The translations under genes and the position numbers were made by a program. The notes under the pieces were generated by a model. It saw only the letters and a list, made by a program, of their open reading frames with translations. It did no database searches and was not told the DNA's origin. Shown here in pieces: positions 8,673-32,828 of a stretch of DNA of 64,000 bases. How positions within the stretch are numbered: position 1 is the first letter of the stretch; each line of letters starts with the position of its first letter. The stretch is from NCBI RefSeq assembly GCF_030161595.1, contig NZ_BSUM01000001.1:2232001-2296000 (forward strand), given 5' to 3'. The DNA is from Litorihabitans aurantiacus. Lineage in GTDB: Bacteria > Actinomycetota > Actinomycetes > Actinomycetales > Beutenbergiaceae.

Positions 8673-8727
8673 GCACGAGGCCCCGGTCGGGGTGCTGCAC
8701 CGCAGCACCCCGACCGGGGCCTCGTGC
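8673..8727. terminator. Bidirectional terminator between aquaporin and DUF3017 genes
   Basis: A perfect 26-bp stem (8673-8698 with 8702-8727) encloses a three-base loop. It lies between the convergent ends of the aquaporin gene (8653) and the DUF3017 gene (8735) and would stop transcription from both sides. Confidence 0.9.
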
Positions 8728-24637: not shown

Positions 24638-24682
24638 ACGCCGACGGGCGCCGACCCCACGAGGGTCGGCGCCCGTCGGCGT
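24638..24682. terminator. Bidirectional terminator between exporter and sugar-transferase genes
   Basis: A perfect 20-bp stem (24638-24657 with 24663-24682) with a five-base loop lies between the convergent gene ends at 24616 and 24696. Confidence 0.88.
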
Positions 24683-29241: not shown

Positions 29242-30705
29242 ATGTCCTCCTCGCCCCCGCCGGCGACACCGCCGGCCACACCGCCGTCGCCCGCCGACCC
29301 GAGCGGGACGACGCCGTCGCCCGCACCGTTCTGGACCCGGCTGCGCTCCTCGGCATCACCCGCAGCGAGCCGCGCTGGATCGGCGGGGTCGCCGGCGGCC
29401 TCGCCACCCGCTGGAACCTCGACCCGCTCGTGGTGCGCGGGTTGTTCGCCGCGTCGCTCGTGCTGGGCGGCATCGGTTTCCTGGCCTACGGCGTCGCGTG
29501 GGCGCTCCTGCCGGAACCGGACGGCCGCATCCACGCCGAGCGGGCGCTGCGCGGCAACGTCGACGTCGCGCTCGTCGGGATCGGCCTCATGGTGCTGGCC
29601 GGCGTCGGACCGGGCCGCTGGATCGGTCTCGGCTGGGTCGGCGACGGCGCGTGGGGCGGGCTGCGCGGCGGCGGGTTCGCGATCGTGGCGCTCGCTGCCT
29701 GGATCGCCTGGCACCACCACCGCGGCGGGCGTGCGGGTGCTCGTGGACGGGGCCGAGGCCCCGGCGGCGCCGCCGGCGGCAGCGCCGGGTCCGGCGCGAC
29801 GGGTGCGGGCCCGGACGCCCGGGCGACGACGAGCGCCACCGCCGACCCGTCGTGGGGGACGCCGTCGCCCGCCGCCACGTCACCCGCGCCCACGGTGCAG
29901 GACCTCACCGATCCCTACGGCTCCCCCGAGCCCGCCGCGCCGACCGCGTCCCGCGCGTCCGGCAGCGCGGGTACGTCCTCGGCCACGACACCGGGCGACC
30001 CCGACGGTCCCGCCCCCGCCACGGGCGGCTCCTGGCCGGTCCCCGCCCGGGTGCGCGGACCGGGGGCGGGATGGTCGCCGTCGTGACGGCGCTGGCGGTG
30101 CTCGCCGTCGCCGGGCTGCTGCTCGCGAACCGCACCGGGGCGATCGCCGGGACGGGGTGGGCGCTCGCGATCGGCGTCGTCGTCGTGCTCGTCGGTGCCG
30201 GGATCGTGGTGACCGGGCTGCGCGGACGCCGCAGCGGCGTGCTGTCGCTGCTCGCGATCGTCGGTCTGGTCGCCGCGCCGTCGGCCGTGACCCAGGCGCA
30301 GGGGTGGGGCTGGGACTGGTCCGCGACCCAGGCGTTCGGCGAGGCCGACGTCACCCCGACGACGCGCGACGCCGCCGCGGAGGGCGTGCGGCTGGGCGCG
30401 GGGAACGCCCGCGTGGACCTCACGGCGGTCCCGCTGACGGCCACCACCCTGACCGTGCCCGTCTCCGTCAACGCGGGTGAGGTCGAGGTGGTCGTCCCCG
30501 CGGGTGCCGACGTGCGTGCCGAGATCGACGTGTTCGCGGGTCAGGTGAGCTGGACGGTCGACGGGCAGTCCGAGCAGGCGTCCGGTCGCATCGCGGACGA
30601 CCTCGTCTACACGACCTCCGGCGTCGACGCCGGAGCCACCCCCAGCTGGTGCTCGACCTGCGGGTCGGGGCCGGCGACGTCACGATCACGGAGGCCGACG
30701 CATGA
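29242..30705 (+). CDS. PspC-domain membrane protein with LiaF-like C-terminus (frameshifted at three places)
   Basis: From the ATG at 29242 a Pro/Ser/Thr-rich head leads, after a one-base break between 29242 and 29352, into a PspC domain (LGITRSEPRWIGGVAGGLATRWN, VVRGLFAASLVLGGIGFLAYG). More helices and a Gly/Ala/Pro-rich linker follow. A second break at the GGGGG run 30062-30066 leads into further helices (VVTALAVLAVAGLLLAN). A third at CCCCC 30639-30643 restores the end of a beta-rich domain (EVEVVVPAGADVRAEIDVFAG, then VLDLRVGAGDVTITEADA). Restoring three bases gives 488 residues. The end overlaps the next ATG (ATGA at 30702-30705). A PspC sensor plus a LiaF-like domain suggests membrane-stress sensing with the divergent kinase. 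Confidence 0.78.
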
Positions 30706-31268
30706 GCACGACGCCCGGGGGCGACCGCCCCGACGAGACCCAGCGTGCCGGCGACCCGGGCGATCCCGGCGGGTTCGTCCGGTTCGGCCAGTTCACAGGC
30801 GCCGACGGTGCCGGCAGCGGCAGTGGGGCGACAGGGGCGCCCGACGCCGAGCGCCGCAGTCCCGGCGCGAGCGCTCCCGGATGGGCTGGCCCCGGGCGGG
30901 GTGCGCCGTGGCACGGCTACACGGGCCGCGGATACACCGGGCACGGGTCCGGTGAGCAGGCGTCCGGCGAGCAGGGGTCCGACGGGCAGGGCGGCAGCGG
31001 GTACGGCTACCCGGGGTACGGGCACCCGTGGCACCCGTCCGCGGGGCGCGGCCGAGGCGGCTGGGAGGCTCGGCCGGTGTCCCGCGGCCCGCGGCCGGGG
31101 ACCGTGATCTGGGGACTGCTCGTGATCGCCGTCGGGGTCCTGACGATCGTGGCCTCCACCGGGATCTCCCTGGACCTCGAGCTGGCCGCCATCATCGGGC
31201 TGGCCGCCGCCGGCGGGCTGCTCCTGCTGACCGCGGTGCTGGGCGCCGCGCGAGCCCGGCGCCGCTGA
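30702..31268 (+). CDS. Hypothetical membrane protein coupled to the PspC gene
   Basis: A 188-residue protein with about 120 Gly/Pro/Ser/Tyr-rich hydrophilic residues (HGYTGRGYTGHGSGEQASGE, YGYPGYGHPWHPS) followed by two helices (GTVIWGLLVIAVGVLTIVAS and LAAIIGLAAAGGLLLLTAV) and an Arg-rich end. Its ATG overlaps the stop of the PspC gene, so the two are cotranscribed and coupled. Small two-helix proteins of this kind follow PspC genes in related actinobacteria. Function is unknown; a role in envelope-stress signalling is inferred from context. Confidence 0.78.
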   Translation: MSTTPGGDRPDETQRAGDPGDPGGFVRFGQFTGADGAGSGSGATGAPDAERRSPGASAPGWAGPGRGAPWHGYTGRGYTGHGSGEQASGEQGSDGQGGSGYGYPGYGHPWHPSAGRGRGGWEARPVSRGPRPGTVIWGLLVIAVGVLTIVASTGISLDLELAAIIGLAAAGGLLLLTAVLGAARARRR

Positions 31269-31288
31269 GGCCTCAGCCGCCACCACCG

Positions 31289-31349
31289 GTTCGCTGCGCA
31301 CGAATGGGGTCTTCAGCCGTGTTGAAGACCCCATTCGTGCGCAGCGAAC
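31289..31349. repeat. Perfect 27-bp hairpin (first of two)
   Basis: Bases 31289-31315 are exactly reverse-complementary to 31323-31349, leaving a seven-base loop. The arm contains GCACGAATGGGGTCTTCA, less GC-rich than its surroundings. It starts 21 bases after the last gene and may act as its terminator, but the length and unusual sequence make a dispersed palindromic element equally possible. No gene fits the short frames that start inside the arms. Confidence 0.85.
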
Positions 31350-31379
31350 GCTCACCCCGGCCACCCTGGCCACCGCGCC

Positions 31380-31419
31380 ACCCGGTCCAACCCGGTCCAA
31401 CCCGGTCCACCCGGTCCAC
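31380..31419. repeat. Tandem ACCCGGTCCA decamer repeats
   Basis: Three consecutive copies of ACCCGGTCCA (31380-31409) and a slightly shortened fourth lie between the two long hairpins. No protein frame explains them. Confidence 0.8.
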
Positions 31420-31432
31420 CCCGACCACCGCA

Positions 31433-31487
31433 CCGTGCGCACTTTCTGCTGCTTCACCGGCCGCGAAGCAGCAGAAAGTGCGCACGG
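31433..31487. repeat. Perfect 23-bp hairpin (second of two)
   Basis: Bases 31433-31455 pair exactly with 31465-31487 around a nine-base loop. The arm contains TGCGCACTTTCTGCTGCTTC; like the first hairpin it carries TGCGCAC and lower GC than the neighbourhood. It is too far (165 bases) from the upstream gene to be its primary terminator, and 147 bases from the end of the convergent glycosyltransferase gene. Confidence 0.85.
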
Positions 31488-31549
31488 GGCGAGGTGGTGG
31501 GCGGCAGCAGCAGCCGGCCTCGGCAGCAGCCGGCGGAAGCAGCAGCGGA

Positions 31550-31619
31550 TAGCGGCGGCGCCGGCAGTTCAGGGACGGCGGCGGCGCCCGCAGTTCAGGA
31601 ACGGCGGCGGCGCCGGCAC
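31550..31619. repeat. 27-base imperfect direct repeats (GGCGGCGGCGCC..CAGTTCAGG)
   Basis: GGCGGCGGCGCC recurs three times with a 27-base period. The first two copies are followed by the same CAGTTCAGG-A segment (31564 and 31591). They fill most of the remaining gap before the glycosyltransferase stop at 31635. In all, 31269-31634 is gene-free and consists mainly of these repeats and the two hairpins. Confidence 0.75.
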
Positions 31620-31634
31620 CACACGCCCCCGGAG

Positions 31635-32828
31635 TCAGAAGGGCAGCAGCCGGCGGGCGCGGGCGTACTCCCGCTCCGCCGCGGCCAGCACGTCGCGCCA
31701 GTCCGCCGCGGGCGGCACCGCCCGGTTGTGGGCCGCGATCCGCTCCCGCAGGCCCTCCTCGCGCGCCAGGCGCACGACGGCGGCCACCAGCCCGGCGTCG
31801 TCGTCGGCCAGCAGACCCTCGCGCTCGTCCGTGACGAACGACGTGATGCCGGTGCCGGCCAGCGCCACCACGGGCAGCCCCGACGTCCGGGCCTCCAGCG
31901 CGGCGATGCCGAAGGCCTCCAGCCGCGCGGGTGAGACGAAGGCGTCGTGCCGCGCGTACAGCGCCGGCAGGTCGCCGCGCGGCACGCGCCCGAGCAGGTG
32001 CACCGCGTCCGCCACCCCGAGCCGCTCCGCCTCGCGGCGCACGGCGGCGACGTCGGGCCCGTCCCCCGCGATGCTCAGCTCGACGGCGCCGCTCCCCAGC
32101 ACCTCGCGCGCCCCGGCCAGCGTGCGCACCAGCGTGCGGGTGCGCTTGCGCGGCGCGACCCGCTGCGTCGCGACCAGGCGGAGCACGCCGTCGTCCGCGC
32201 GCGCCTCGCCCGCGGGTGCCCAGGCGGCGACGTCCAGACCGTTCGGCAGCACCCCCACCTCGCCCGGCGCACCCTCCACGGGGAACGCGTGCGCCACCCG
32301 CTGCGCCGCGACGTCGCTGACGGCCGAGAGCGCCGCGCTCTCCCCGTCCCAGCGCAGCGCCCGGGCGCCGAACCGCAGCGGAGCCTCGACGCCGTCGAGC
32401 ATGCAGTGCCAGGTGATCGCGAGCGGGAGCCGCGCGGCCCGCGCCGAGCGTGCGCCCTGGAACGCGAACGGGGACAGCACGCCCGCGTGCACGTGCACGA
32501 CGTCGGGAGCGAGCGCGCGCAGGCGGCGGGCGATCAGCGCGGACCCCCGCGGGTGCACCGGGAGGCCCGCGACGAGGCGCGAGGCGATCCGGTGCAGGCG
32601 GACGCCGCCCGCCGTCGTCGTGACCGACCGGTAGCGGTCACCGCCGGCACCACCAGCACCGCCGGCCCCTCCCGGGGCGTCGCCGTCGTCCCCCGGCGCG
32701 CCCGCCGTCGCGGTGAGCACGTGCACCTCGTGCCCCGCGGCCACCTGGTGCGCCGCGAGGTCGCCCACCTGCGTCTCGATCCCGCCCACGCGTGGCGCGA
32801 AGCAGTCCGAGACGTGCACGATCCTCAC
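31635..32828 (-). CDS. Family 4 glycosyltransferase
   Basis: A 397-residue GT-B fold transferase. The N-terminal half has MRIVHVSDCFAPRVGGIETQ, with the glycine pair typical of GT4 acceptor domains, and PDVVHVHAGVLSPFAF. The C-terminal half has LPNGLDVAAWAP near 205, RLVATQRVAPRKRTRTLV, LSIAGDGPDVAAVRREAERLG, VHLLGRVPRGDLPALYARHDAFVSPARLEAFGIAALEA with the EX7E nucleotide-sugar site, and GLPVVALAGTGI. It probably builds a cell-wall glycolipid or polysaccharide using a nucleotide-sugar donor; the acceptor is unknown. A Gly/Ala-rich insert lies near residues 47-65. GTG at 32828 is the start. It lies 45 bases downstream of guaA on the same strand. Confidence 0.9.
   Translation of the reverse strand: MRIVHVSDCFAPRVGGIETQVGDLAAHQVAAGHEVHVLTATAGAPGDDGDAPGGAGGAGGAGGDRYRSVTTTAGGVRLHRIASRLVAGLPVHPRGSALIARRLRALAPDVVHVHAGVLSPFAFQGARSARAARLPLAITWHCMLDGVEAPLRFGARALRWDGESAALSAVSDVAAQRVAHAFPVEGAPGEVGVLPNGLDVAAWAPAGEARADDGVLRLVATQRVAPRKRTRTLVRTLAGAREVLGSGAVELSIAGDGPDVAAVRREAERLGVADAVHLLGRVPRGDLPALYARHDAFVSPARLEAFGIAALEARTSGLPVVALAGTGITSFVTDEREGLLADDDAGLVAAVVRLAREEGLRERIAAHNRAVPPAADWRDVLAAAEREYARARRLLPF

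Follow-up and report, generated by a model that had tools for sequence, protein, structure and literature searches.

Two adjacent hairpins between convergent genes of Litorihabitans aurantiacus as putative members of a dispersed, untagged REP-like intergenic family

The 64,000-nucleotide stretch of Litorihabitans aurantiacus DNA analyzed here (the window) contains, at 31269-31634, a gap between a plus-strand gene for a 188-aa protein and a convergent glycosyltransferase gene on the minus strand. The gap holds two long hairpins, H1 and H2, and several tandem arrays (Table 1). An earlier inspection of the letters alone (the sequence-only reading) had reported perfect stems of 27 bp and 23 bp, which we recovered at the same positions, the second as the perfect part of a longer stem. 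It had also pointed to TGCGCAC in the arms of both hairpins and to a GC content lower than that of their surroundings, and both observations hold (H1, 0.61; 59-nt core of H2, 0.66; window, 0.74). As for the repeats around the stems, the decamer array is as described; the later array has a unit of 26 bases, not 27.

Table 1. Genes, hairpins and tandem arrays in and around the gap (window positions)
Feature	Position	Strand	Details
Upstream gene	30702..31268	+	188 aa; stop 20 nt before H1; no Pfam or NCBIfam match at E 0.001
Hairpin H1	31289..31349		27-bp perfect palindrome, 7-nt loop; arms 31289-31315 / 31323-31349; 59-nt core 31290-31348; joint model R3, 72.9 bits
Decamer tandem array	31380..31423		ACCCGGTCCA, 4.5 copies; between H1 and H2
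Hairpin H2	31429..31491		27 nt at 96%, 9-nt loop; perfect part 23 bp, 31433-31487; 59-nt core 31431-31489; joint model R3, 74.7 bits
16-base tandem array	31500..31546		2.9 copies
26-base tandem array	31552..31618		2.6 copies
Convergent gene	31635..32828	-	family 4 / group 1 glycosyltransferase

When 64 kb of first-order Markov sequence was simulated 60 times, chance gave a longest perfect stem of 15 bp (median 11). Stem length alone does not set H1 and H2 apart, since the window has two other long perfect hairpins, of 26 bp at 8673-8727 (loop 3) and of 20 bp at 24638-24682 (loop 5). What distinguishes H1 and H2 from these is the recurrence of their arms elsewhere. The two other hairpins, which lie in convergent gaps and have no match to the joint model R3, are probably ordinary terminators.

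A BLAST search of each hairpin against the window's genome (G000) returned further copies. Using covariance models built from aligned copies (alignment A1, all 13 H1 copies; alignment A2, all 9 H2 copies), we found at least 13 H1 and at least 9 H2 places among the best 90-92 candidates scored per genome. The copies thus form a dispersed family of extragenic palindromes within one genome. The sequence-only reading had suggested a dispersed palindromic element, with the proviso that arms found nowhere else would make the hairpins ordinary terminators; the genome-wide arm search shows that the arms do recur, and one-off terminators were rejected on this count. All sites lie on contig C1, at 130k (H2-H1-H2), 159k, 204k, 205k, 527k, 2176k, 2263k (the window), 2654k, 2759k, 2802k, 2913k (H1-H1-H2), 3360k, 3552k and 3553k. 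Both types are present at all six multi-hairpin sites, and by hand count seven of eight neighbouring pairs are heterotypic (p 0.038 vs random pairing), with 10-79 nt between heterotypic neighbours. At two of the both-type sites the order is gene-H2-H1, the genes being glycosyltransferase paralogues, so that these sites may represent one duplication and not independent events. Cruder searches were less informative: a two-mismatch pattern search of G000 was swamped (703 matches vs 489 in the control), and the 14 stretches that came up in genome contigs for exact 17-mers, each with a single match and from unrelated organisms, look like chance hits.

Other long hairpins were encountered along the way. 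A third family, H3, lies beside the H1 copy at 3360k (C1:3360554-3360674) and occurs, in part incompletely, at about nine other places in G000. A hairpin with a 40-nt stem and a 6-nt loop at C1:3361906, between co-directional genes, has no R3 match.

The repeated unit is about 59 nt long: a 9-nt loop is enclosed by 25-base arms that carry a TGCGC-like core close to their base (positions 6-10) and have CTTC/GAAG at their tip. We collected 44 copies from three species of the genus: 13 H1, 9 H2, 16 from a second species (G001) and 6 from a third (G002). Thirty-four of them align without gaps over 59 columns (alignment A4), a statement that is true of these rows only, as H1 2759496 and H2 2759386 each require a one-base gap. 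Besides these two, A4 omits H1 2913636 of G000, the G001 copies 2426893, 3023386, 3319680, 3320717, 3340443 and 3360815, and the 44-nt match C10:248052 of G002. Covariation between the arms in A4 is 0.511 vs 0.171+-0.014 after shuffling (0/500 shuffles), and both sides have changed in 18 of 25 pairs. Within single families the signal is clear for H2 (0/500) and moderate for H1 (7/500). Joint covariation would arise in any collection of hairpins whose arms differ; it shows that pairing is kept. Either selection or correction of one arm by the other, for which quasi-palindrome repair is a possible route, may be responsible.

The G001 copies follow a different pattern. Their pairing is below that of shuffles (88.5% vs 90.8%) because the two arms are distinct: position 13 is a conserved mismatch, with C in 15/16 copies on one arm and G in 14/16 on the other, and position 15 has G vs A between the arms in 13/16 each, the copies having been oriented by position 13 and not by position 15. 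The core of the outer arm hardly varies, and the arm changes of the inner stem are uncompensated. The element in G001 therefore has a polarity, sequence rather than pairing being what appears conserved there. This polarity follows transcription at six of seven co-directional sites (hand count), which is not significant.

The G001 family comprises at least 16 copies with arms starting CGTTGCGCGCAC, and two further copies turned up in fetched stretches, indicating that the genome searches undercount; these two, at 3023832 and 2146004, stand outside every alignment and context count. In G002, with an E threshold of 1e-4, R3 identifies at least 10 places, two adjacent pairs among them; five of the 10 had been found earlier and were included in A4. 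Outside the genus few genomes match: the R1 and R2 searches, with the best 90-92 candidates scored per genome, give matches in at least 6/56 and at least 5/56 other genomes, respectively, at E 0.01. Searches of the order and class with R3, scoring the best 22 candidates per genome, match at E 1e-4 at least 12 of 248 genomes of the order, nine of them outside the genus (9/245 others), and at least 8 of 246 genomes in a class-wide draw, three of them outside the order. Two genomes, G157 and G114, have at least five R3 places each; two others, G021 and G022, are matched by R2 and unmatched by R3 at 1e-4. In the order beyond the genus, the best R3 scores per genome are 38.1-51.5 bits (best 22 candidates scored), and the hairpins inspected have a similar layout in other letters, although R3 itself favours a 9-nt loop, so that the layout of its matches is not independent evidence. 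When R3 was run on 35 sources, including ordinary hairpins of the window and of G001 with stems as long as 40 nt, the best non-family match reached about 23 bits, the status of low-scoring matches being our own judgement. A family link beyond the genus is likely, though not proven. The element sequence itself is genome-specific, each species having its own version.

Are the sites older than the sequences they carry? An artificial joined query served to locate the flanking-gene orthologues, whose surroundings were then fetched and compared. At three of the 14 G000 sites, a relative has an element scoring 30 bits or more flanked by the same two neighbours: 204k (G001, 67.7 bits), 130k (G002, 52.7 bits) and 2176k (G002, 38.5 bits). 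Two more sites have such an element beside one same neighbour. These are 205k, where G001 has two elements and G002 one of 30.6 bits, with an extra plus-strand gene before the right-hand orthologue in both, and 3553k (G002, 30.5 bits), which was judged by its downstream gene only. Weaker matches of 22-23 bits occur for 130k in G001 and 204k in G002. The other nine sites are not all proven absences, as several had one flank or none matched. The G000 copies at 204k and 205k differ from G000 H2 copies at 6-11 of 50 arm bases and from G001 copies at 18-24 of 50 (five compared in each case). At these two sites, both shared with G001, the copies are thus closer to others of G000 than to their counterparts in position. 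Sequences peculiar to each genome at a shared place imply that copies were homogenised or that insertion recurred there, and suggest that sites can persist while their sequences are replaced. The recent origin proposed by the sequence-only reading is accordingly borne out for the arm sequences, which are genome-specific, and not for all sites, some being common to other species of the genus.

Gene context was obtained with our own ORF predictor followed by hand corrections. The window site was called convergent by hand, as the predictor's score cut had dropped the weak plus-strand gene. At 527k, where the element follows a tRNA-Leu and precedes a plus-strand gene, a long ORF running through the element was discounted by hand. 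At 159k a frame whose end we take to resemble SAICAR synthase stops 18 nt before the hairpin, although the predictor's ORF, in another frame, overlaps it. Given the corrections at 527k and 159k, all 22 G000 copies are intergenic. Of note, a gene at L143:3928-4935, which we take to be SAICAR-synthase-like, apparently has its N- and C-terminal parts in different frames, either through a frameshift or through a sequencing error.

The 14 G000 sites comprise 7 convergent, 5 co-directional and 2 divergent gaps, and the 15 G001 sites 6, 7 and 2, respectively. Pooled, this gives 13 convergent, 12 co-directional and 4 divergent sites out of 29, a count in which sites common to the species are not independent. 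Convergent gaps make up 13/29 element sites vs 22/133 other gaps of at least 60 nt (Fisher p 0.002); in G001 alone the difference is not significant (6/15 vs 16/75, p 0.18). Among the stretches fetched from G000 and G001, strong hairpins of the ordinary kind occur in 9/21 convergent, 14/65 co-directional and 0/33 divergent gaps, and hence behave like 3'-end signals. The element family shares this bias, yet has four divergent sites. Neighbouring genes are diverse in function, with no Pfam match for 9 of the 20 tested, and a common function of the neighbours was rejected. Several element pairs flank exactly one predicted gene: 2872283/2872880, 3319680/3320717, 3339101/3340443 and 3359484/3360600 on contig C2 of G001, and 204403/205678 and 3552052/3553007 in G000. 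Five of the six enclosed genes have no Pfam match.

These distributions raise the question of whether the hairpins are ordinary intrinsic terminators that evolved locally and look alike through shared terminator constraints. The enrichment in convergent gaps would agree with this, as would the unrelated strong hairpins found beside element-free orthologues (of 159k in G001 and of 2263k in G002). No U-tract follows the hairpins: within 12 nt of the 22 copies, the longest T run after is 1 and the longest A run before is 3, and a search of 31000-31900 returned no terminator-like site. However, a study of high-GC Streptomyces reports terminators with long stable hairpins and little or no U-tract (PMC12207403), which makes the missing U-tract compatible with termination in a high-GC genome. 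H1 and H2 resemble the terminators reported there in their long stable hairpins, little U and position at 3' ends, and differ in being a sequence family, in forming doublets and in occupying some divergent sites. A 59-nt sequence common to the copies is unexpected of unrelated terminators, the doublets and divergent sites fit them poorly, and the ordinary strong hairpins of these genomes have loops of 3-6 nt in 18/23 cases and are absent from R3 matches up to E 1. We therefore consider local, independent terminators quite unlikely. The sequence-only reading had also mentioned a structured RNA, which would fit arms that change together and a placement enriched at the 3' ends of genes. Known RNA families were rejected on Rfam matches that all fall below the curated score (14 matches, 12 of them to microRNA hairpin models).

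Tandem arrays such as those in the window accompany the elements in G000, where they occur in 9/12 element gaps vs 7/50 other gaps (p 8e-5); element gaps are longer, arrays being found in 3/14 of the other gaps of at least 250 nt, and the gap filter of this test excluded the element sites at 159k and 527k. The association is marginal in G002 (4/10 vs 9/70) and absent in G001 (5/15 vs 17/72).

The position of the sites along the chromosome bears on another explanation, in which the copies are DNA sites for a chromosome-organising protein of the nucleoid or origin region and the hairpin is incidental to inverted TGCGCA half sites. With neighbours merged, all H1/H2 clusters of G000 lie within the dnaA-proximal 57% of the half-chromosome (p 0.006), and all G001 clusters found by R1/R2 within the dnaA-proximal 50% (p 0.002). 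Together with the nearly invariant outer arm core and the uncompensated inner stem of G001, this would suit protein sites. However, this bias came to light post hoc, in two genomes of common ancestry, and H3 does not have it (p 0.16); furthermore, the copies are few, their placement depends on gene orientation, and the arms co-change in H2 and in the joint alignment. Protein sites as the whole explanation thus appear decidedly improbable, whereas a DNA-level role of some kind would be compatible with the conservation of the outer arms and with where the clusters lie relative to dnaA.

We looked for a means by which copies could spread. The Y1/RAYT transposase domain (PF01797) was found in none of five genomes, vs 5 of 14 in the control, and no consistent tag is seen within 12 nt of the 22 copies: GTAG/CTAC occurs at 2/22 and CGTC/GACG at 4/22, in no fixed place. 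Absence of the domain and of a consistent tag makes a RAYT route unlikely, and RAYT-driven REPs were rejected. Integron attC was set aside as an identity, since the outer bases of the element run, as we understand attC, the wrong way. No match was found for H1 in plasmids, for H2 in phages or for one exact arm pattern per type in viral contigs, and a phage or plasmid origin was rejected for these queries. No mobilising or homogenising enzyme emerged from a search that covered Y1.

A further candidate is a minimal miniature element (MITE) made of the two terminal inverted repeats of a DDE insertion sequence, back to back. MITEs such as NEMIS, named in PMC3733652, are likewise intergenic and have inverted repeats; the H1/H2 arms of 25-27 bp fall within the range of MITE terminal repeats given there as background, and the elements are dispersed and multi-copy. 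In contrast to MITEs, they lack an internal region, and a search for abutting target-site duplications 3-9 bases long yielded nothing beyond a 3-base match at 1 of the 22 copies. No parent insertion sequence appeared either, in similar DNA from G000, from 38 related genomes searched with H1, or from the plasmids, phages and viral contigs queried above. A MITE origin is accordingly very improbable.

The closest resemblance is to REP and BIME sequences, which according to PMC3733652 are also dispersed, intergenic and genome-specific, form doublets of two types and prefer convergent or co-directional gaps. H1 and H2 share the intergenic location, the convergent or co-directional preference (25/29 sites) and the frequent doublets (the six multi-hairpin sites of G000). 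As that paper presents them, REP units tagged with GTAG/CGTC are 20-40 bp long and of high copy number, whereas here the unit is about 59 nt with at least 9-13 copies per type, without a consistent tag and without a Y1/RAYT gene in the five genomes. Because tag, RAYT, length and copy number all differ, we do not class the family as tagged REP. The same paper lists untagged REP-like families in M. tuberculosis, D. radiodurans, Bordetella, Brucella and Cyanobacteria and states that more likely exist; these are likewise dispersed palindromic repeats without a terminal tag, and we liken H1 and H2 to them by description only. The 25-9-25 layout and the similarity across genera are features of the H1/H2 family in the present analysis. 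By analogy, the family may work like REP, as far as can be seen. No title or abstract among the open-access literature matches listed describes such elements in this group.

We favour, with a probability of roughly 0.6, the reading that H1 and H2 are adjacent members, of two types, of a dispersed, untagged REP-like intergenic family that has spread or been homogenised and has a role at 3' ends. Copies would have spread and/or been homogenised inside each genome by a process other than Y1/RAYT. When transcribed, the element probably acts at the 3' end: its hairpin may be a stop without U-tract, a stabiliser or a barrier to antisense transcription. Such a long hairpin would end or protect transcripts and limit read-through into the opposing gene, and in the window the two hairpins would serve both convergent genes. 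The divergent sites (4/29) make little sense under a 3'-end role. We may also hypothesize, as a speculative extension that we hold unlikely, a widespread class of palindromes of fixed geometry (25-base arms, 9-nt loop, TGCGC, CTTC/GAAG) in the genomes of high-GC bacteria, spread and concertedly rewritten by a hairpin-recognising enzyme that has no relation to RAYTs. Were this so, each genome having its own sequence at partly ancestral sites would mean that element and enzyme co-evolve in the manner of a private recognition code.

If the untagged family is real, it would represent a REP-like system without its known engine, which keeps positions and rewrites sequence genome-wide, and the concerted evolution of palindromes would become testable outside RAYT hosts. 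The elements also provide a concrete set of hairpins without U-tract for the study of convergent transcript ends in high-GC bacteria, and they call for caution: a long hairpin between convergent genes is not always a simple terminator.
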